From: a virus
IMG/VR virus record: IMGVR_UViG_3300025316_000025
Span: 1 to 45,751 of that record
Length of the DNA stretch: 45,751 nt
Direction: 5' to 3' (one strand)
The notes under the pieces were generated by a model. It was given only the letters and a program-made list of their open reading frames with translations, was not told the DNA's origin and did no database searches. Both the position numbers and the translations under genes were made by a program. This document shows, piece by piece, positions 4,853 through 45,751 of this stretch (its first letter is position 1; the number at the start of each line of letters is the position of its first letter).

Positions 4853-4900
4853 AGTTGTGATGGTATATACCTTGATGATAGACAAATTAGTAGGTAAATA

Positions 4901-25443: not shown

Positions 25444-26643
25444 TTAAATTAGAGCCTCTATCTTTAATGCTGGTTTGACTTCCAGGCAGTTGAATTGCCA
25501 CCGCATAGTATGTTCTACAAAAGCCAAGTTCTCAGGCTCACAAATAATACTGTCGTGAATGGTTGCCAGGAACATATCAGGATGTTGTTCTTTTAATGAC
25601 TGGCAGACCTTATTAAACATGAAGCTGGATTCTTCTCTTTGCATATTATGAGCTAATTTCTCATAACCAGACTTTCTAACCTCCAATGTATAAGCCATTA
25701 TGTCTGGATATAATTCATTCATAGCTTCTATTATTTGTTTCATTTCAGGAGATTTCCTTTTCTCTGGATCACAGTAAAATGAAGCAAGAACCTTATGTTT
25801 AACTTCTTCTCTTGTCTTACCTATTAAATCAGCAATTCTCTGGTAAATCTGTCCTGATTCACAGTCTTTTTGATACTCACTAATTTGTCTATCATCAAGG
25901 TATATAACATCACACATAATGAAGGTGGATGGGTCTTGATTGTACTTGAATTGATTGTTGTAAATAATAGAAAGAAATAGAGGCTGAGAATTACTTATAT
26001 CTACTCCTGATAAGTGTTTATTCTTTACTTTAATAAACTTTCTACAATCAGTAGGAAGATTAGTAAGATTAGTATGTATTCTACCGTAATCATCCACATG
26101 AAAGAACCATTGTTTATTTGATATAGCAATACACTGATTGGCAAAAATGTCATAATGTTCATCTCCATCTAAATATTCTAATGCAGCTTCTAAATCAATT
26201 TCTATTTTAAGTAAATTATTATAAAGCCATTGTTGTAGTTCTGTTCGTTCTTGTTCCAGGTGCTTAAACCATTTATCCAAAGACTTCAAAAGGAATTTAC
26301 TGATAATTGGAATTGATCTAAATTTAACTCCCTCAAATATCTTACCTATCTTATAACCTTTGGCTTTTACTTTTGGGATATAGAAGTCGTCACAAATAAT
26401 CATTTTCGCCTTGAGCATTTCGTTCAAGAGTAGGCGGGCTTTTTTGTGACAATGAAGAATTATTTGTAAATATTGGAGTTTAAGGTGCGTCCAAGAATTT
26501 TCGGATTTACGCTGGTCGTGGGTAAATCTCATTAACCGAGTGAAGTAAATATGGGAAAGTATGAACCTACAGTCGTCAGCGTACTTGTGACACCATTTCG
26601 GTAAAACTTTCACATCAAATGTTTCTGGAACAAATATATTCAT
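25444..26643 (-). CDS. Divergent single-subunit nucleic acid polymerase-like protein
   Basis: The 399-residue protein is read from ATG 26643. Palm-type motifs of the family A DNA polymerase/T7 RNA polymerase superfamily appear in order: motif A VDISNSQPLF with D215; a motif B-like helix REEVKHKVLASFYC (residues 278-291, K282/K284, Y290); motif C TIHDSI with H363-D364. Motifs A and C (DxSxSQ, IHDS) look closer to T7 RNA polymerase than to Pol I. No exonuclease domain is seen, and the protein is less than half the size of T7 RNA polymerase. It may be the phage replicase or a minimal RNA polymerase; no other polymerase, primase or helicase was found. Translation starts right after an unusual leader RNA. 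Confidence 0.6.
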   Translation of the reverse strand: MNIFVPETFDVKVLPKWCHKYADDCRFILSHIYFTRLMRFTHDQRKSENSWTHLKLQYLQIILHCHKKARLLLNEMLKAKMIICDDFYIPKVKAKGYKIGKIFEGVKFRSIPIISKFLLKSLDKWFKHLEQERTELQQWLYNNLLKIEIDLEAALEYLDGDEHYDIFANQCIAISNKQWFFHVDDYGRIHTNLTNLPTDCRKFIKVKNKHLSGVDISNSQPLFLSIIYNNQFKYNQDPSTFIMCDVIYLDDRQISEYQKDCESGQIYQRIADLIGKTREEVKHKVLASFYCDPEKRKSPEMKQIIEAMNELYPDIMAYTLEVRKSGYEKLAHNMQREESSFMFNKVCQSLKEQHPDMFLATIHDSIICEPENLAFVEHTMRWQFNCLEVKPALKIEALI

Positions 26644-26649
26644 AAAAAT

Positions 26650-26733
26650 AGCCCTCTTGGTGGAGTCACGCCTGGACAGCAATGATGAACCCAAGAGGGC
26701 TTTAATTTGATCTAATTGTTATGCTGTCCAGGC
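26650..26733 (-). ncRNA. Leader RNA with interleaved inverted repeats, polymerase-like gene
   Basis: Minus-strand order: B1 GCCTGGACAGCA (26733-26722), A1 AGCCCTCTTGG (26701-26691), B2 TGCTGTCCAGGC (26681-26670), A2 CCAAGAGGGCT (26660-26650), then ATTTTT-ATG. A1:A2 is a perfect 11-bp and B1:B2 a perfect 12-bp pairing, arranged A-B-A'-B' so that they form a pseudoknot or compete. A2 contains the ribosome-binding site (AAGAGGG) of the polymerase-like gene, so A1:A2 would hide it, and it also resembles a terminator stem. The expected transcript start (about 26736) lies just before B1, so the leader consists almost wholly of this structure. Confidence 0.75.
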
Positions 26734-26742
26734 ACTTCTCTT

Positions 26743-26771
26743 ATTCTAACATAGTATCTATGCAGCAACAA
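26743..26771 (-). promoter_or_regulatory. Candidate promoter for polymerase-like gene leader
   Basis: On the minus strand -35 TTGTTG (26771-26766), 17-base spacer, -10 TAGAAT (26748-26743). The predicted start falls at about 26736, a few bases before the first strand of the structured leader. Confidence 0.55.
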
Positions 26772-27388: not shown

Positions 27389-27566
27389 ACCATCCACCTG
27401 TTCCGAACCAAAATTCGTCACAAAACCGATCATATTGTTCGTTTATTTCTTGTAGTTCCCATTCCAATTGATCTTCTGGAATAAGATCATATAAATAATC
27501 AAAATATTCGGCTGTCTCAAAACCATATAGATTCTCAGCTTGAGCTAATTCGTATTCATTAAACAT
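27369..27566 (-). CDS. Small acidic protein
   Basis: The 65-residue protein starts at ATG 27566 (MFNEYELAQAENLYGFETAE), rich in Glu, Asp, Tyr and Phe, and could mimic DNA or bind a host regulator. It overlaps the end of the upstream gene by eight bases, with GAGG upstream, and the next gene by 20 bases. No family is recognised. Confidence 0.55.
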   Translation of the reverse strand: MFNEYELAQAENLYGFETAEYFDYLYDLIPEDQLEWELQEINEQYDRFCDEFWFGTGGWYESPSI

Positions 27567-28149
27567 TAGAAGCCTCACATTTTCCTAATTCTTTCAAGAA
27601 GTCAGCTTCATCGTCAGCGGTAGGTGAGGCAACGCAGGTTTTAATATCATTCAAAAAATCAACATCGCTCTCAAGAGGCTTATATTTTTTCAACCACTCT
27701 TCTTTGCCTTTGGCATACCATTCACAATATTCTTTTTCGGTCAAAAAGTTGCCAGGATTTATCTCATTCAGTAAATCTTCTAAAATAGAATCTTCTAATT
27801 GGTTTTCGGGTTTTAGAAGCTGTAGTCTTTCCCAACATTTGATTATGGCTTGTTTATCGCCACTATCTTTTACCACTTCAACTATATCAGCAAGAAAACT
27901 CCAAGAAACCTTCACATCCTCCATGAATGGCGGGTTATTAAAGTATTTCCAGGCGTTAATCAGTGTGGACATAGATTCTTCAATAACTTGAATTTGGGCA
28001 TGGATATGCCACCAAGACACATCACACTGTCCAGGTTCGGGCTTGTAATCAACTGGAAATTTAGCCAATTCCAACTTTTCTGCTTTTAACATTTCTCCAA
28101 GTTCTTTGATTTCTGCTTCTAAACCCACACACATTTCTTTTTTATTCAT
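27559..28149 (-). CDS. Hypothetical early protein behind attenuator-like leader
   Basis: The 196-residue acidic, helical protein begins MNKKEMCVGLEAEIKELGEM. It has a predicted coiled coil in the first 35 residues and a Trp-rich middle (CDVSWWHIHAQIQVIEESM). RBS GAGGAAG precedes ATG 28149, directly after the terminator arm of the leader at 28172-28237, so expression likely depends on that element. Function unknown. Confidence 0.6.
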   Translation of the reverse strand: MNKKEMCVGLEAEIKELGEMLKAEKLELAKFPVDYKPEPGQCDVSWWHIHAQIQVIEESMSTLINAWKYFNNPPFMEDVKVSWSFLADIVEVVKDSGDKQAIIKCWERLQLLKPENQLEDSILEDLLNEINPGNFLTEKEYCEWYAKGKEEWLKKYKPLESDVDFLNDIKTCVASPTADDEADFLKELGKCEASNV

Positions 28150-28171
28150 AATTTCTTCCTCAAAAAAAGAA

Positions 28172-28237
28172 AAGCCCGCAATATCCTCCCCAGGAAATGC
28201 GGGCTTCTCAAAATTTTATGTTAGTCCTGGGGAGGAT
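28172..28237 (-). ncRNA. Leader RNA with interleaved inverted repeats and terminator
   Basis: Minus-strand order: B1 ATCCTCCCCAGGA (28237-28225), A1 AAGCCCGCA (28206-28198), B2 TCCTGGGGAGGAT (28195-28183), A2 TGCGGGCTT (28180-28172), then TTCTTTTTTT. A1:A2 is a 9-bp terminator-type hairpin with a T-rich tail; B1:B2 is a perfect 13-bp pairing between upstream RNA and the terminator loop. Only two bases separate A1 from B2 and B2 from A2, so both stems can hardly form together: a terminator/antiterminator switch is implied. The topology is the same as at 26650-26733, but the sequences differ. Confidence 0.75.
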
Positions 28238-28267
28238 TCTTTAATTGTATCATATCTACATATAGAA

Positions 28268-28774
28268 TCAATAGGGAAATTCTGCCAGAATCTTTTTATA
28301 TGCAAGTTCTGTGATCTGCCGCACCCTCTCCCGACTGATGGATAGTTCGGTGCCGATTTCTTCTAATGTACGCCCATCTGCCCTCTGACGCAATATATAT
28401 TGAGAACGATTATCCAGAACCGCAAGAAATTTATCGGCATCTTCATTAGCGGCAAATTTATCCAAAATTCGCTCGTCATAGGCTAATAAATCTTCATTTA
28501 TATTCCCATCCTCATAATGGATGCCCGCCCGTTCTTTCTTCCTGCGGCTAAATTCCTTTTTTCTCCAACGCCAACAAGTTTTATTTATTGTGGCGTAAAG
28601 GTAGGTAATAAATTTAATATCTTTGTCGGGATCAAATAATTCAGCCGCCCGCATAAACTTCATACAGCACTCTTGGTACAGATCGGTGTCCGTAACGGGT
28701 CTTTCATCCGTATATTTCCCGACAATCTTACAAATTAGCGGAATCCAGTTCTCTATGATGTGTTCTTTCTCCAT
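28268..28774 (-). CDS. Phage sigma70-family factor
   Basis: The 168-residue protein starts at ATG 28774 behind GGGAG. Region 2 spans about residues 30-80 (DLYQECCMKFMRAAELFDPD, FITYLYATINKTCWRWRKKE) and region 4 about 115-165 with the helix-turn-helix TLEEIGTELSISRERVRQI. Regions 1 and 3 are missing, as in ECF-type and phage sigma factors. It heads the leftward block and is a strong candidate to redirect host RNA polymerase to phage promoters such as the CTATATTA elements. Its own promoter region contains CTATATAA, hinting at autoregulation. Confidence 0.85.
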   Translation of the reverse strand: MEKEHIIENWIPLICKIVGKYTDERPVTDTDLYQECCMKFMRAAELFDPDKDIKFITYLYATINKTCWRWRKKEFSRRKKERAGIHYEDGNINEDLLAYDERILDKFAANEDADKFLAVLDNRSQYILRQRADGRTLEEIGTELSISRERVRQITELAYKKILAEFPY

Positions 28775-28799
28775 TATTACTCCCAACTTATATAGTAAT

Positions 28800-28808
28800 A
28801 TCATACCA
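28800..28808 (-). promoter_or_regulatory. Extended -10 promoter for sigma gene
   Basis: On the minus strand TGGTATGAT gives an extended -10 (TG-n-TATGAT) with no good -35, about 26 bases before ATG 28774. The related CTATATAA follows directly. It fits early leftward transcription by the host enzyme. Confidence 0.5.
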
Positions 28809-37611: not shown

Positions 37612-39786
37612 ATGAGTAGAAGTCAATTATATACAATTATAGCAAGCAATCTTCCTACTAATGGTAGTGGACAGATCACGGCGGCAAATCTTAGAAGCAC
37701 ATTAAATACTATTGTTGCCTCTGCTGATATGCAGGATGATACTAATACAAATATTATTACTCAGTATGAGAATGCTTCTAATGGAACATTAAAACTTGGT
37801 TCTAGCACAACTGCTGGTTCTCTTGGGTCTAGTGTTGTTATTGGACAAGGTGCTGTAGCATTAAATGGTAAAGGCACAGTTGTTGGTTTTGGAGCATATT
37901 CTTATCTTCTTGGTGGTGTTTCTGTTGGCTATGGTGCTACAAGTAATAATAACGGTTGTGTTGCCATTGGATCGGCTGCTCATGCTGCTAAAAATAATTC
38001 TATAGCAATAGGAATTAACTCATCTGTATCTTCTTATAGTTCTACTGGTGGCGGAATTGCCATTGGTAAAAATGCTCTTGTAAATAGCGAAGGCGGAATC
38101 GCTATTGGAGAAAATAGTAATAGTACAAATCAGTATGGTGATAGTGGGATTGCTGTTGGAAATCTTGCATCATGTCCTTTTGGTGCAGGGGTGGCAATAG
38201 GAAGAGATGCAATGGCTGGAATGTATGGAGTAGCCATTGGTGATGGTGCTATAAATTTAGACAACTCACAAACAGCCGTTGGTTATTACGCAGATGCGAC
38301 AGGAAATAATGCTACAGCAATCGGTATGAGTTCTAAAGCTAATGGTTATTTTACAACTGCCGCTGGTACTTATTCAACTGCATCTGGTTATTATGCAATC
38401 GCTATTGGATATAATACTACTGCGTCTGGTTATGGTTCTATAGCTATTGGCCCTGCTGTTTATGCTTATGGCGATTATCAAATTGCTATTGGTCATAGTG
38501 CTAATTGTGCTGGAAACAATTCAATAGTTATGGGAGAGAGTTCTGAGGCTGGTTGTAATTCAATAGCTATAGGAGCCGATACAGCGGCAGCACCAGCAGC
38601 GACATCGGGTACTATGGGGGCTGGTGGTTCTATTGCTATTGGGCAAAGTGCTGTTGCATTAAGAAATAATGCCGTATCCATCGGTTACGGAGCAACAGCA
38701 TGTAATGATGGCTCAACTGCTATAGGACAAGGAGTTAAAGCTGGTAAAAATAGCACAATGATTGGTCAAAGAATGACTTTAAGTGGTGGTTATACGGAAC
38801 GGACAACAGATGATTCAACAGTTGTTGGACAAAGTATAACTGTCACTGGAAATCAAGTAATTGCTCTTGGACAAAATATAGGAGCAAAAGAACAATCTGT
38901 TGTCATTGGTACTAATGCCAATGGTAATAGCACGAACTCTGTTATTATTGGAACAAATTGCCAAACAGCATCAGGTTGTGTGGGTCAAGTTGGAGTTGGT
39001 TATTATGCTCATTGTGACGGAAATAATTCTGTTTCAGTTGGCCCTAATTCCTACGCTAATGAAAATACTGCTGTTTTAGGTGCGGGTGCGAGAGCCATAA
39101 ATCCATATACAATCGCTATTGGTAAAGATTCATTAGCAAATGATGCACAGACTATTGCTATTGGTTATTCTGCAACAGCAGATAATTCTGGTGCTGGTTT
39201 ACCTGGTGCTGTGGCTATTGGAACACAAGCACAAGCACGGGACGGAAGCGTTTCGGTTGGTCGGTATTGTTTTTCATATGACCAATCTATTGCTATTGGA
39301 CAATCAATTCTTGCCAGTGGTGGTTCTGTAGGTATTGGAACTAAAGCTGGAAGTCATAATAGCGTAACACTTGGTATTGGTGGAAATCTACACGACAAAG
39401 AAGATTGTGTTTTAATTGGTAAAGGCGTTTCTATTAACGCCAATTATGCAATGGCATTTGGAAGTTATTCTAATGTTAATACTGGTGCTGATAGAGGCAT
39501 CGCTTTTGGCCCTAGTTCGTCAGCTAATGCTTATGAAGGCATTGCTATTGGTGCTTCTACAACTGTTGCTTCAACTGCTACAAGTTCTGTAGCCATTGGT
39601 GCTGGTACATCGGTAAGTACGCCACAAACTATTGTTCTTGGTAAAGGTGGATTTGTTGTTGATATTCCTGCTAAAGCTGATCCTGCACCGACTTATCACG
39701 AAGGAGCATTGTATTATAGTTTGACGACTCACGCACTATATTATGGTGGTGCCGCTGGTTGGGTGAGAGTAGCCAGCACAGTTTAA
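37612..39786 (+). CDS. Tail fibre 1 with YadA-head-type repeats
   Basis: The 724-residue protein has an N-terminal module SQLYTIIASNLPTNGSGQIT then NLRSTLNTIVAS, a phage fibre attachment-type start. About 600 residues follow of roughly 14-15-residue units of the form (A/S)(I/V)G-x-x-A/S-x-A, the left-handed beta-roll repeat of YadA and other trimeric autotransporter heads. A C-terminal cap reads TYHEGALYYSLTTHALYYGG. Such repeats trimerise into long rigid stalks, so this is very likely a host-binding tail fibre. RBS AGAGGAAAT precedes ATG 37612. Confidence 0.82.
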   Translation: MSRSQLYTIIASNLPTNGSGQITAANLRSTLNTIVASADMQDDTNTNIITQYENASNGTLKLGSSTTAGSLGSSVVIGQGAVALNGKGTVVGFGAYSYLLGGVSVGYGATSNNNGCVAIGSAAHAAKNNSIAIGINSSVSSYSSTGGGIAIGKNALVNSEGGIAIGENSNSTNQYGDSGIAVGNLASCPFGAGVAIGRDAMAGMYGVAIGDGAINLDNSQTAVGYYADATGNNATAIGMSSKANGYFTTAAGTYSTASGYYAIAIGYNTTASGYGSIAIGPAVYAYGDYQIAIGHSANCAGNNSIVMGESSEAGCNSIAIGADTAAAPAATSGTMGAGGSIAIGQSAVALRNNAVSIGYGATACNDGSTAIGQGVKAGKNSTMIGQRMTLSGGYTERTTDDSTVVGQSITVTGNQVIALGQNIGAKEQSVVIGTNANGNSTNSVIIGTNCQTASGCVGQVGVGYYAHCDGNNSVSVGPNSYANENTAVLGAGARAINPYTIAIGKDSLANDAQTIAIGYSATADNSGAGLPGAVAIGTQAQARDGSVSVGRYCFSYDQSIAIGQSILASGGSVGIGTKAGSHNSVTLGIGGNLHDKEDCVLIGKGVSINANYAMAFGSYSNVNTGADRGIAFGPSSSANAYEGIAIGASTTVASTATSSVAIGAGTSVSTPQTIVLGKGGFVVDIPAKADPAPTYHEGALYYSLTTHALYYGGAAGWVRVASTV
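39736..39743 (+). promoter_or_regulatory. CTATATTA copy in end of fibre 1 gene
   Basis: The octamer occurs in codons of the fibre's C-terminus (ALYYGG), 60 bases before the sulfotransferase ATG. It may be a promoter for the following genes or chance coding sequence. Confidence 0.25.
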
Positions 39787-39803
39787 GTTTATTTGGAGAA
39801 AGA

Positions 39804-40601
39804 ATGAAACAATTTTATTTTCTTGGTGGAATGCCAAGAAGTGGATCAACCCTTTTATGTAATATATTAAATCAAAACCCATCCATATACGCCACACAGA
39901 CGAGTGGTTGTATGGATGTGATGTTTGGGGTGAGGAATACTTGGGAGCAACTTATAGAACATAAGGCTACTCCCAATCCCGAAGGATTAAAAAATGTATT
40001 AAATGGAATTATCAATAATTATTATAAAAATATAGAAAAACCAATAATTATTGATAAATGTCGTGGTTGGGTTAGTTTAATAGAAATGGCAGAATATGCC
40101 TTGGGACATAAAATAAAAATAATTGTTCCTGTTAGAGATTTAAGAGATATATTATCCAGCTTTGAACTATTATGGAGGAAGAAGGCAAGCACGGGTCAGA
40201 TTCCAGGGGAACAACAAAATTATATTCAATTCCAAACAGTGGAAGGCAGATGTGATTTTTGGTGTAGGGCTGACCAACCTGTAGGAATTGCATATAATAG
40301 AATTAAAGATGCGATCAATAGAGGATTAAAAGATAGAATGTTATTTGTTCATTTTGAGCGATTAACAAACAGTCCTGAGACAGTTATGAGTAAAATTTAT
40401 AAGTTCTTGTAACTTCCTGAATTTATTCATAATTTTGATTATGTAGAACAAGTGACGAAAGAAGATGATGCGGTCTTTGGGTTTGACGGATTGCATACAA
40501 TTAAAAATAAAGTTGAACCAATACCATCCAGACACCCGATTGTTTTGGGAAGGGTGGCAGACAAGTTTGAACAAGCAAATTATTTATGGAGCAATTTATG
40601 A
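39804..40601 (+). pseudogene. Sulfotransferase interrupted by in-frame TAA
   Basis: The protein opens FYFLGGMPRSGSTLLCNIL, the 5'-phosphosulfate binding loop of PAPS-dependent sulfotransferases (P11-T16), and has the 3'-phosphate binding pattern PVRDLRDILSSF. The frame stops at TAA 40410-40412 after KIYKFL, but continues in the same frame for 62 more codons (LPEFIHNFDYVEQ and so on) typical of the family's C-terminus, ending at TGA 40599-40601. That TGA overlaps the next gene's ATG (ATGA), which shows the full frame was the original gene. Either the gene is inactivated, the stop is read through, or the base is an assembly/strain variant. The ATG-stop product would be 202 residues. Confidence 0.8.
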
Positions 40602-40960
40602 ATCCTTTTATTAAAGTAGAACCAACTCCTCTTACTCCCGAAGAAATGAGAGTTAAGAGATTGGAACAACTAATCGCCTCACTAAACAGGGATGGACAAT
40701 CGCTTTTAGAGCAATCGGTTAATACGATTGAATCTAATTGGAATAAAGTTTGGGAGAATGAATTATTTACTCCCGCCGAAGTTCTTGAACAGATGGGAAC
40801 AAGTGCGGTGGAAATTTTTAGAACCTCTGCTTTATTTACTGCGGCTGTTTATCAGATTGGTGCGGGTGCTACGCCTCCTGTGGTTATATTAGACGAGAAG
40901 TATTTGTCGGCTAAACTGCCTTGGGTTGGACATGAAGATGGCACTATCACCTTAGCCTAA
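40598..40960 (+). CDS. Hypothetical protein between the fibres
   Basis: Read from ATG 40598 behind GGAG, the 120-residue helical protein begins MNPFIKVEPTPLTPEEMRVK and later has WNKVWENELFTPAEVLEQMG. It overlaps the sulfotransferase stop by ATGA. It lies between two fibre genes and could be a fibre chaperone or virion protein. No family is recognised with confidence. Confidence 0.6.
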   Translation: MNPFIKVEPTPLTPEEMRVKRLEQLIASLNRDGQSLLEQSVNTIESNWNKVWENELFTPAEVLEQMGTSAVEIFRTSALFTAAVYQIGAGATPPVVILDEKYLSAKLPWVGHEDGTITLA

Positions 40961-40970
40961 GTAGGTAAAA

Positions 40971-43889
40971 ATGAGCGAAACAAGAAGTCAATTATTATCC
41001 GATGTAGCTATTAATTACCCTGATAATACTAATTGGGGTATATTACCAGTTAATCTACGCACAGTAGAAGATAATATAATCAATAATGTTTTAATGCCAG
41101 AAGATATTGTTGCTGGTACAAATATTACTATTGGGACTTCTGGCACACAAATTACCATCAATTCTACTGGTGGTGGAACGACTCCTGGCTCGTCCGTAAT
41201 TGCCTCTGCTTTTGTTCCTTATGTGGGAGCAACGGCTGATGTTAATATTGGTGGATATAATTTATTTACTACTGGCGGATCAATAAATATTGATGGCTCA
41301 GTAGGTTTAAGTGCCAATCAAGATTCTACAAGCGTTGCTGTTGGTGGCTTTGCTGGTGGTGGCGGTAATAGCGTAGCAGTTGGATATTATGCTGGTGCAA
41401 ATACTATTGGACAAACTTCATTGATTGCCGTAGGAGATCACGCTACAGCAGTTGGTAATAATGGTATAGCGATTGGACAAGGTGCGAATGCCAGCACAGA
41501 CTCAATCGCTATAGGTAAAACTGCAAATTCTAATTTTTCTAATTCTGTTTCCATAGGCACAATAGCTACAAGTGGCAAGAATAGTATCGCTATTGGTCTT
41601 GGTGCTAATGCAAATATTGCTGCTTTAACTTTTCCACAAGCAACATCTATTGCGATTGGATCAAACGCCCAAGCATCAAATAATAATTGTATTGTTATTG
41701 GTCATGGATTAACGCCAGCTAATAATAATTCTATTTTAATTGGAATCAATTCTATTTCTGGCGGAAATAATTGTGTTTTAATTGGTATTGGGGCGAATGG
41801 TTTATGTTCGGGAAATAATACAGTAGCTATTGGATTTTCTTCTAATGCTTCTGGCCCTGCTACAACTGCTGTTGGTGCTGGTGCTAATGCCAATGCTGCT
41901 TTAGGATATGCTACAGCGATTGGTGGTGGTGCTAATGCTGCACAAAATAATGCAACTGCCGTGGGTGGTGGTGCGGTTGCATCTGGAAATGGAACGGCTA
42001 TTGGTTGTAATTCTAATGCTAATGCGGCAGGAACTCCCACAGCCGTTGGTGCTGGTGCTAATGCTGGTTCTAATAACGCTACAACGGTTGGTGCTGGTGC
42101 TAATTCTGGAAATAATTCTGTCGCCATTGGTGCTGGCACAAATGCTGGTAATCCTACTGCAAATAATATGACCGCTGTTGGACAAGGTGCTAATGCTTCT
42201 GGCCCCAATATTACAGCGATTGGACAAGGTGCTAATGCAAATAATGCAACAGGATTTAGCGTAGCCGTTGGAGCATTGGCTTTTGCTAATTCTTCTAATG
42301 CTACAGCAATCGGTGCTGGTGCTAATGCCTCTGCAACTTATGCTACAGCCGTGGGTAATTCTGCTAATGCTGCAAATGCTGGAAGCACGGGTTGTGTGGC
42401 AATAGGTTATGCAGCAAATGCTAATTATAATAATTCAACTGCTGTAGGTGGTTCTACCCAAACTGGTAATAATTCAGTAGCCATCGGACACACAGCTAAT
42501 GCCAATTCCGCCTCCCTTAATAATATGACCGCTGTTGGACAGGGGGCTAATGCTTCTGGTGCTAATACCACAGCTATTGGTAAAAGTGCCAATGCAAATA
42601 ATGCCACAGGATTAAGCACAGCCGTTGGTGCTGGTGCTTCCGCTAATGCTGCATGTTCTACAGCATTAGGGGCAAGTGCTAATGCTTCTAATACTCAAGG
42701 AACAGCCCTTGGATATTTAGCTAATGCTGCTGCAAGTTCTGGAACAGGAACGGCTGTAGGTTATACAGCTAATGCTAATTTTAATAATTCAACTGCTGTA
42801 GGCGGTGGAGCAACGGCTGGTAATAATTGTGTTGCTATTGGACAAGCATCCATTGCTAATGCCTCTGGTATAAATAATATGACAACGGTGGGACAAGGTG
42901 CAACCGCCGCTGGTGCTAATGCTACAGCTATTGGTAAAAGTGCTAATGCAAATAATTCTACTGGATTAAGCACAGCCGTTGGTGCCGCTGCTGCCGCTAA
43001 TGCTGCATATTCTACAGCATTAGGGGCAAGTGCTAATGCTTCTACTACACTTGGAGTGGCAGTTGGATACGCAGCTAATGCTTATAATGCATCAGGAACA
43101 GGCACAACATCGGTAGGAACAAGTTCTAACGCCAATGGATTTAACGCCACTTCGCTCGGCTATTCCGCAAGTGCAACAGGCAATAATTGTGTTGCTATTG
43201 GTCAAGGAGCAGTAGTTGGGGCGACCAGTCATAATTCTGTGGCTATTGGACAAGCTGCAAACGGTGCGGGTGCGAGTGCAATTTCTATTGGTATGACAGC
43301 TAATAGTTCCATTGGTGGTGTTTCTGTAGGTTATGCAGCTAATACAAATACTGGTGGAACTGGTTATTCTGTAGCCATTGGTAATAATGCACACACTTTA
43401 ACTAATGGAAACAATGCCGTTTCTGTAGGTAATAACGCCACAGCAAGTAATAATGCCGTTGCTATTGGTAATAATGCTCAAGCAACTGGTGCCAATTCTG
43501 GTGCATTTGGTGCAGGTGCTTCTACTTCCACAGCAAATCAAATTGTTATTGGTGTAGCGGCAAGTAATGTTTATATTCCAGGCAATTTAAGCATTGGTGG
43601 ATCATATACAAATGTAATCGTAAATCTTACAGCAAGTGGGTCTGTAGGTGCTAATGAACAGACTGTTGTTGGTAATAATGCCTCTGTAACGGTTGCAGTT
43701 GCTTTACCTGCTGCTTCTGGCAATATAGGAAGAAGTATTAACTTCAAGAATATAGGTGCAGCTTCTATGACGGTTGCTGCTGCTGGCGTGGATACTATTG
43801 ACGGTAGTAATCCTGGCACACAAACTTTAGCACAATGGGGTAAATTAACTTTACAAGGAATTACCTCAACTGGTTGGGCTATTGTATAA
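40971..43889 (+). CDS. Tail fibre 2 with YadA-head-type repeats
   Basis: The 972-residue protein has an N-terminal module related to fibre 1 (SQLLSDVAINYPDNTNWGIL, then NLRTVEDNII). A run of about 780 residues follows of short units such as TAVGQGANAS and ATAIGAGANA, the YadA-like beta-roll, with many Asn and Ala. A C-terminal domain of about 85 residues (GSVGANEQTVVGNNASVTVA, then a GWAIV end) is non-repetitive and may bind the receptor. A higher-order repeat of 118-119 residues occurs at 42162-43220. It probably forms a long trimeric fibre of about the same build as fibre 1 with a different tip. Confidence 0.82.
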   Translation: MSETRSQLLSDVAINYPDNTNWGILPVNLRTVEDNIINNVLMPEDIVAGTNITIGTSGTQITINSTGGGTTPGSSVIASAFVPYVGATADVNIGGYNLFTTGGSINIDGSVGLSANQDSTSVAVGGFAGGGGNSVAVGYYAGANTIGQTSLIAVGDHATAVGNNGIAIGQGANASTDSIAIGKTANSNFSNSVSIGTIATSGKNSIAIGLGANANIAALTFPQATSIAIGSNAQASNNNCIVIGHGLTPANNNSILIGINSISGGNNCVLIGIGANGLCSGNNTVAIGFSSNASGPATTAVGAGANANAALGYATAIGGGANAAQNNATAVGGGAVASGNGTAIGCNSNANAAGTPTAVGAGANAGSNNATTVGAGANSGNNSVAIGAGTNAGNPTANNMTAVGQGANASGPNITAIGQGANANNATGFSVAVGALAFANSSNATAIGAGANASATYATAVGNSANAANAGSTGCVAIGYAANANYNNSTAVGGSTQTGNNSVAIGHTANANSASLNNMTAVGQGANASGANTTAIGKSANANNATGLSTAVGAGASANAACSTALGASANASNTQGTALGYLANAAASSGTGTAVGYTANANFNNSTAVGGGATAGNNCVAIGQASIANASGINNMTTVGQGATAAGANATAIGKSANANNSTGLSTAVGAAAAANAAYSTALGASANASTTLGVAVGYAANAYNASGTGTTSVGTSSNANGFNATSLGYSASATGNNCVAIGQGAVVGATSHNSVAIGQAANGAGASAISIGMTANSSIGGVSVGYAANTNTGGTGYSVAIGNNAHTLTNGNNAVSVGNNATASNNAVAIGNNAQATGANSGAFGAGASTSTANQIVIGVAASNVYIPGNLSIGGSYTNVIVNLTASGSVGANEQTVVGNNASVTVAVALPAASGNIGRSINFKNIGAASMTVAAAGVDTIDGSNPGTQTLAQWGKLTLQGITSTGWAIV
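42162..43220 (+). repeat. Three 354-357-base higher-order repeats in fibre 2
   Basis: The codons for NNMT(A/T)VGQGA recur at 42162, 42519 and 42873, giving units of 357 and 354 bases that keep frame. Within each unit the same order of shorter repeats is seen (TAIG, ANANNATG, TAVG, STAVGG). Recent in-frame duplications of a block of about eight beta-roll coils explain this, so fibre length probably varies between relatives by recombination. Confidence 0.8.
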
Positions 43890-45132: not shown

Positions 45133-45751
45133 ATGAAAATAGTTACACTTGTAGCTATGAAACCTGATTTGAATTGGGCATTGGTTGAAAGACAATTCAA
45201 TTTATTGGGTCAAATGGCTATTTCTTGTCCCGATGTGGACATTATTATTGATCGTAAAAAGGTAGAGGGAGCTAATTTACCTCATACCGAGCGACAAAAA
45301 GCTATGTGTGAGATCAGGAATCGTATGATTTCCCGATATGTTGATTTTAATTATCATACGCATGTGCTTATTCTTGATGCGGATATAGTTGATTATCCAC
45401 CCAATCTTCCTTATTTGTTCGCAAATCACGAACACGCTGTTGTGGGTTGTGCTAATTTTTTAGAGGATCACGGGGCAAGATGGTATGACACCGCTGGATA
45501 TATTTATAAAGGACAAAACGCCAATCTATTTCCTCCCTATTTCCCAACAGAAGAATGTGTTGTAGATATGGACAGTGTAGGAATGTCATATTTAGTTCCT
45601 GTTGAGGTATTCAAAGAAAATAAATATGAGCCGCCAACTGGATTCGCTACAGAACATTATTCTATTTGCCAAGCTGCAAAGAGAATGGGTTATAGAGTTT
45701 TGTGTGATTTGAACATAACAATTATTCATGCTTTCTTGCCTAAGTATGGGG
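45133..45751 (+). CDS. 5' part of glycosyltransferase split by window ends
   Basis: RBS TAGGAGAAAG precedes ATG 45133. The protein begins MKIVTLVAMKPDLNWALVER and has the DxD motif in LILDADIVDYPPN (D82, D84) after HTERQKAMCEIRNRMI. The fold is GT-A, resembling small phage glycosyltransferases with ARN/RNRM helices. The last 246 bases match the window start, so the gene continues into 247-260 and totals about 210 residues. It begins the glycan cluster of the first 3 kb. Confidence 0.8.
   Translation, partial: MKIVTLVAMKPDLNWALVERQFNLLGQMAISCPDVDIIIDRKKVEGANLPHTERQKAMCEIRNRMISRYVDFNYHTHVLILDADIVDYPPNLPYLFANHEHAVVGCANFLEDHGARWYDTAGYIYKGQNANLFPPYFPTEECVVDMDSVGMSYLVPVEVFKENKYEPPTGFATEHYSICQAAKRMGYRVLCDLNITIIHAFLPKYG
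45506..45751. repeat. Right copy of terminal overlap
   Basis: Matches bases 1-246 with two silent differences. See the left copy for detail; together they define a circular map of about 45,505 bp. Confidence 0.9.

Follow-up and report, generated by a model that had tools for sequence, protein, structure and literature searches.

Two interleaved-hairpin leaders in an unclassified phage as candidate transcription attenuators

The window analysed here, the whole 45.75 kb of IMG/VR record IMGVR_UViG_3300025316_000025 from an unclassified phage, contains two gene leaders in which two inverted repeats are interleaved in the order A-B-A'-B' between a promoter motif and a T-tract. This leader architecture is real, rare and used twice in one phage. 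Each leader is approximately 75-90 nt long and has, in our estimate, an even chance of being a cis-acting attenuator that meters the passage of RNA polymerase through an early intrinsic terminator. The two interlocking, competing hairpins are probably a built-in on/off or dimmer switch.

Architecture of the two leaders

Element 1 is located on the minus strand before the gene of a polymerase-like protein. Its putative promoter, a sequence motif at 26743-26771, is made up of TTGTTG (26771-26766), a spacer of 17 nt and TAGAAT (26748-26743), with the extended -10 sequence TATGTTAGAAT at 26753-26743; the -35 box lies below the reach of the consensus promoter scanner and was not listed by it. Strand A (GCCTGGACAGCA, 26733-26722) begins 9 nt past the -10 box, which would put it at or near the 5' end of the transcript. 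After 20 nt it is followed by strand B (AGCCCTCTTGG, 26701-26691), the 5' arm of the putative terminator hairpin. Strand A' (TGCTGTCCAGGC, 26681-26670) sits in the middle of the B/B' loop with 9 nt on each side, and strand B' (CCAAGAGGGCT, 26660-26650), the 3' arm, runs directly into the T-tract ATTTTT (26649-26644) and the ATG at 26643. Within B' is the ribosome-binding site (RBS) of the polymerase-like gene, AAGAGGG (26658-26652), credible as such because Shine-Dalgarno matches occur at 29 of the 47 phage genes and at 11% of random positions. An earlier note on this DNA had described perfect repeats at these positions in A-B-A'-B' order, a -35/-10 pair ahead of the first strand and ATTTTT after the last, and all of these were verified in the sequence. 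The RBS is likewise inside the last strand as claimed, with a spacer to the ATG of 8 bases rather than 9. Among the perfect inverted repeats of the window (arms of at least 10 bp, spans to 130 bp), element 1 is the sole interleaved pair.

A second and slightly stronger element, overlooked by the earlier note, turned up at 28237-28169 on the same strand in a scan that tolerated G-U pairs and required a T-tract. Its promoter motif (28244-28271) consists of TTGATT, 16 nt and TACAAT, the extended -10 sequence being TATGATACAAT (28254-28244). Strand A (ATCCTCCCCAGGA, 28225-28237) begins 6 nt past the -10 box and forms a 13 bp helix with A' (TCCTGGGGAGGAT, 28183-28195), which again sits in the middle of the B/B' loop, here with 2 nt on each side. 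Strands B (GAGAAGCCCGCA, 28198-28209) and B' (TGCGGGCTTTTC, 28169-28180) form a 12 bp stem including one G-U pair, so that the successive loops measure 15, 2 and 2 nt. Directly 3' of B' is TTTTTTT (28168-28162), and the ATG of the next gene is 12 nt beyond this tract. That gene (27559-28149, minus strand) encodes a 196-aa protein of unassigned function, without a Pfam match at cut-off, and its RBS GAGGAAG (28161-28155) is outside the stems. The stem sequences of element 2 differ from those of element 1, while the architecture is identical.

The two elements are 1.5 kb apart and fill gaps between same-strand genes, from 26780 to 26643 for element 1 and from 28268 to 28149 for element 2, with both T-tracts oriented toward the downstream gene. 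Both end in a GC-rich stem followed by a T-tract, and B/B' is thus taken to be an intrinsic terminator; the simple terminator scanner missed them because it permits loops of 3-8 only. The T-tract of element 1 is broken by an A, and its terminator (an 11-bp stem, then ATTTTT) is the weaker one.

The location would also suit an overlap of ordinary parts, in which B/B' is the terminator of the upstream gene (HNH endonuclease or sigma factor), the promoter of the next gene has been squeezed in before it, and A/A' is a booster or stabiliser instead of a switch, the order of strands being incidental. Both elements do lie between the end and the start of same-strand genes, and AGCCC...GGGCT stems with T-tracts are common terminators. 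However, an ordinary terminator is expected before the promoter of the next gene and not behind it, and chance would not be expected to put perfect 12- and 13-bp A/A' arms at the same position in both elements, in the centre of the B loop; we regard this arrangement as rather unlikely. Two spaced-arm inverted repeats in an intergenic region might also act as DNA, for instance as spaced operator half-sites or recombination sites. The gene-directed T-tracts, the position after a promoter, the differing copies and the strong RNA stems point instead to RNA, and a role at the DNA level is scarcely credible.

Rarity, origin and downstream genes

Scored for the A-B-A'-B' order together with a T-tract, element 1 reached 61 and element 2 63.5. 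Dinucleotide shuffling of the genome, repeated 400 times, gave a maximum of 55 and a median of 0, and one shuffle alone reached 50. Approximately 2.25 Mb of other DNA gave at most 46.5, apart from a single contig with 52; this partly non-independent set comprised polymerase-homologue loci, much of the 595-kb phage LR756511, several other phages and GTDB neighbourhoods. A looser scan of the GC-rich locus L232 gave 53 by chance, so the score is meaningful only in AT-rich DNA like that of the window. Elements 1 and 2 are not due to chance.

The extended -10 pattern TATGNTANAAT occurs exactly twice in the window, before elements 1 and 2. The promoter-leader stretches of the two elements align over their full length as well as only 1 of 2000 mononucleotide shuffles, and over the promoter as well as 5 of 5000. 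Genome-wide, the element 1 promoter finds its best match at element 2; the reverse is untrue, several other stretches being equal for element 2. A common origin is therefore likely although not proven, the similarity of leader and promoter being suggestive, and if the two share an origin then both stems have changed by paired substitutions. A sigma-70 family factor is encoded by the phage directly upstream of element 2 (28268-28804, minus strand) and could be the reader of the unusual TATGNTANAAT promoters.

The elements matched nothing in Rfam, either at the gathering score or with E relaxed to 5, and searches for identical copies of the B/B' and A/A' arms returned chance matches only, located within genes or in GC-rich phages that are unrelated (L007, L008, L232). 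Searches of viral contigs with the polymerase, the 196-aa protein and the sigma factor yielded no close relatives. The sole close relatives of the phage to be found (L089 and L090, terminase 82%) are fragments of 5-7 kb without the leader region. Orthologous leaders that would show phylogenetic covariation were not found in these searches.

Further observations concern the record itself. Its ends (1-246 and 45506-45751) are near-identical repeats of each other for approximately 246 bp, which makes the record circular or terminally redundant, with a true genome size of about 45.5 kb. The terminase gene of the window is uninterrupted, unlike that of L089 (3876-6215) and L090 (1432-3771), in which an apparent intein with an HNH-like domain is inserted. 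Two large proteins with many GGTGCTAATGC-type repeats, encoded at 37612-43889 on the plus strand, are probably tail fibre or adhesin-like.

The gene behind element 1 (25444-26643, minus strand) encodes a 399-aa protein for which Pfam, NCBIfam and PHROG hold no matching model. Its AlphaFold model, built with 36 sequences, has a pLDDT of 90.7, and Foldseek matches in the PDB include DNA polymerase I, Bst, Taq and T7 DNA polymerase (best E 1.2e-6, TM-score approximately 0.4). The motifs DISNSQP (motif A), RxxxK and HDSI (motif C) are invariant or nearly so in homologues, with D215, R278/K282 and H363-D364 conserved. As modelled, the gene product adopts a minimal family-A-polymerase fold of about 400 aa, which bears out the label "polymerase-like" given to it from the sequence. 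Relatives of this protein were found in 182 viral-contig stretches and 37 GTDB loci, at approximately 30% identity or less in long alignments. The family spans phages from 38 kb to 735 kb as well as contigs assigned to Bacteroidota, Planctomycetes, Rhizobium and Methanosarcinaceae.

Except for one contig, homologous polymerase loci were without an element, both in the approximately 80 viral loci of a first scan and in further viral, huge-phage and GTDB loci. Nearly no polymerase relative has an element nearby, so element and gene have not evolved together. The earlier note had named relatives lacking the paired strands as grounds for giving up its reading; they do lack them, but at approximately 30% identity they are too distant to decide the matter. 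Its suggestion of a control special to the polymerase, or to replication, is not supported, since the same architecture precedes the unrelated 196-aa gene and most polymerase homologues have no element.

The exception is L092, a 3173-nt Ignavibacteriales MAG contig that carries a tmRNA gene along with a polymerase homologue sharing 28% identity with the protein of the window. Its element 3 (30-113 of the contig) has perfect stems of 11 bp (A) and 9 bp (B) with loops of 28, 8 and 8 nt; the B stem is followed by TTTT (six T in all), and CATAAT is found 9 nt before A. The score of 52 was reached by none of 4000 shuffles of the contig. Having been found by searching a large set, the element is rated as probably genuine and not as certain. 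It is the leader of an operon that encodes a Cys-rich 116-aa protein, an HTH-like protein and the polymerase. The position of A' within the B loop is exactly central in each of the three elements (9/9, 2/2 and 8/8), and all three have a GC-rich B/B' hairpin with a U-rich run, as in an intrinsic terminator. Sequence homology of element 3 to element 1 or 2 was rejected, as 420 and 500 of 2000 shuffles, respectively, aligned as well. Upstream of a homologue of the gene adjoining the third element (G261), no element was found. In L092 (30-2590), the polymerase homologue lies approximately 110 bp from the 3' side of the tmRNA gene, and the contig is possibly one end of an element integrated there.

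Folding and the proposed attenuation

The two alternative states of each leader have comparable computed energies. For the A-state and B-state these are -31.0 and -29.6 kcal/mol in element 1, -24.2 and -29.1 in element 2, and -23.9 and -27.1 in element 3. When growing transcripts were folded, in a computation without pseudoknots, A/A' was complete before B' was made. Computed in the same manner at full length, element 1 favours the A-state (0.96) and element 2 the B-state (0.999). Compared with shuffles, the terminator hairpins fold 4-5 sd better. Kissing of small self-hairpins of A and A' was considered and rejected as too weak, being indistinguishable from shuffles in element 1.

Of the functions considered for the leaders, attenuation is the most probable, a reading to which sequence and computation lend moderate confidence. 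Transcription would start at, or just ahead of, strand A, and the A/A' helix of 12-13 bp would be able to form once A' emerges. A' being the middle of the coming terminator loop, A/A' would draw that loop off and obstruct B/B', in the manner of an antiterminator. Were B/B' (11-12 bp and the U-tract) to win, transcription would stop. In element 1, B/B' would also lock the RBS, such that read-through RNA in the B-state would go untranslated. The balance might be shifted by the speed of RNA polymerase, by a factor or by antisense RNA; none of the elements revealed a ligand, a protein site or a leader peptide. We infer, then, that the promoter motifs function, that A/A' blocks termination and that some agent shifts the balance. 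The step of which we are least sure is the sign of the A/A' effect, for A/A' overlaps neither B nor B' and might help B/B' to close.

The earlier note had proposed that a choice of pairing sets the amount of polymerase-like protein, by hiding the RBS, by early termination or both. Competing pairings, a leader that starts from strand A, early termination and, for element 1, locking of the RBS are supported here; the polymerase-specific scheme is not. Masking of the RBS as the general function was rejected, given that element 2 leaves its own RBS free. For the same reason we doubt strongly that element 1 is a replication-control leader like those of plasmid rep genes, with pairing that exposes or hides the polymerase RBS under an antisense RNA. 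Such a leader would account for AAGAGGG within B' and for a gene product with a DNA-polymerase fold. Element 2, however, serves another gene, no reading frame is apparent in the leader, the promoter scan lists no antisense-strand promoter there, and nearly all homologous polymerase loci are without the element. A 36-bp segment of the polymerase gene (25879-25914, minus strand) recurs at 4856-4891 on the plus strand, in the gap just before the portal gene, with 97% identity and 28 bp exact. It is a copy of the coding strand and the two copies would yield RNA of the same sense, so this is not an antisense arrangement.

Alternatively, the elements might be stand-alone small RNAs of approximately 75-90 nt, H-type pseudoknots that act in trans or bind protein, with the 5' end enclosed in helix A, the 3' end formed by the intrinsic terminator and the downstream genes merely adjoining. 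Such an RNA would be structured over its entire length, between a promoter and a terminator of its own. By a rough estimate of pseudoknot energy, both helices together beat either single state in elements 1 and 2. In elements 1 and 3 the third loop, of 9 and 8 nt respectively, could bridge a stem of 11-12 bp and let both helices coexist. In element 2, by contrast, a 2-nt loop is too short for the 13-bp stem, and by this reasoning the full pseudoknot is sterically impossible unless some pairs open. The differing stems of elements 1 and 2 leave no common target or binding motif, the polymerase RBS within B' ties element 1 to its gene, and Rfam has no match. On this evidence we consider a small RNA rather improbable.

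Under the attenuation reading, a broader and quite tentative suggestion is that the elements represent a class of attenuators of phages and mobile elements that have no ligand pocket, in which the strand at the 5' end of the transcript invades the terminator loop through a 12-13 bp helix. Complementarity and centred geometry would be kept while sequences drift, and the switch would read polymerase speed or pausing. If true, early phage genes, including one for a replication-type polymerase, would be metered compactly and independently of sequence, by geometry alone, and the elements would offer a clean model of loop-invading antitermination beyond riboswitches. The A-B-A'-B' scan is applicable to any phage collection.

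Comparison with known systems

The pseudoknots of plasmid rep leaders (IncB/ColIb-P9 type) act at the level of translation and rely on an antisense RNA together with a leader reading frame that is translationally coupled. Like them, element 1 places a choice of pairing within the leader of a replication gene. The present elements differ in having a terminator, and neither an antisense promoter nor a leader reading frame was seen by consensus promoter scan or by reading of the leader, which is weak evidence of absence. The elements are also unlike type III toxin-antitoxin (ToxI-like) loci: they are single units, with no tandem pseudoknot repeats before an endoribonuclease toxin, and the downstream products are the polymerase-like protein and an unrelated protein without a Pfam match at cut-off.

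With transcription attenuators the elements share a leader RNA with two competing folds, one of them an intrinsic terminator. The usual antiterminators use an arm of the terminator stem. Here it is the loop that is used, and the exclusion would be topological and not through shared bases.

The SAM-II and preQ1-I riboswitches are H-type pseudoknots that occlude the RBS (PMC10907184). The elements have the two helices of such a pseudoknot in A-B-A'-B' order, and in element 1 the RBS is likewise in the 3' strand of the second helix. However, their perfect stems are much longer and have no conserved core, element 2 excludes the RBS, and neither element 1 nor element 2 matched the SAM-II or preQ1 covariance models in Rfam.

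In guanidine-IV riboswitches (GGAM-1), pairing to the terminal loop of the terminator promotes read-through (PMC10907184; PMC7736828; PMC11611296). There, too, an upstream strand pairs with the terminator loop just before a gene, in competition with the full stem (PMC7736828; PMC10907184; PMC11611296), and A/A' is such a pairing. The elements differ in that their loop pairing is a continuous helix of 12-13 bp comprising nearly all of A. Elements 1 and 2 share no conserved loop nucleotides, show no sign of a ligand pocket and have no match in Rfam, release 15 of which may or may not include a guanidine-IV model. By analogy, the elements may work like a guanidine-IV riboswitch without being members of that class.
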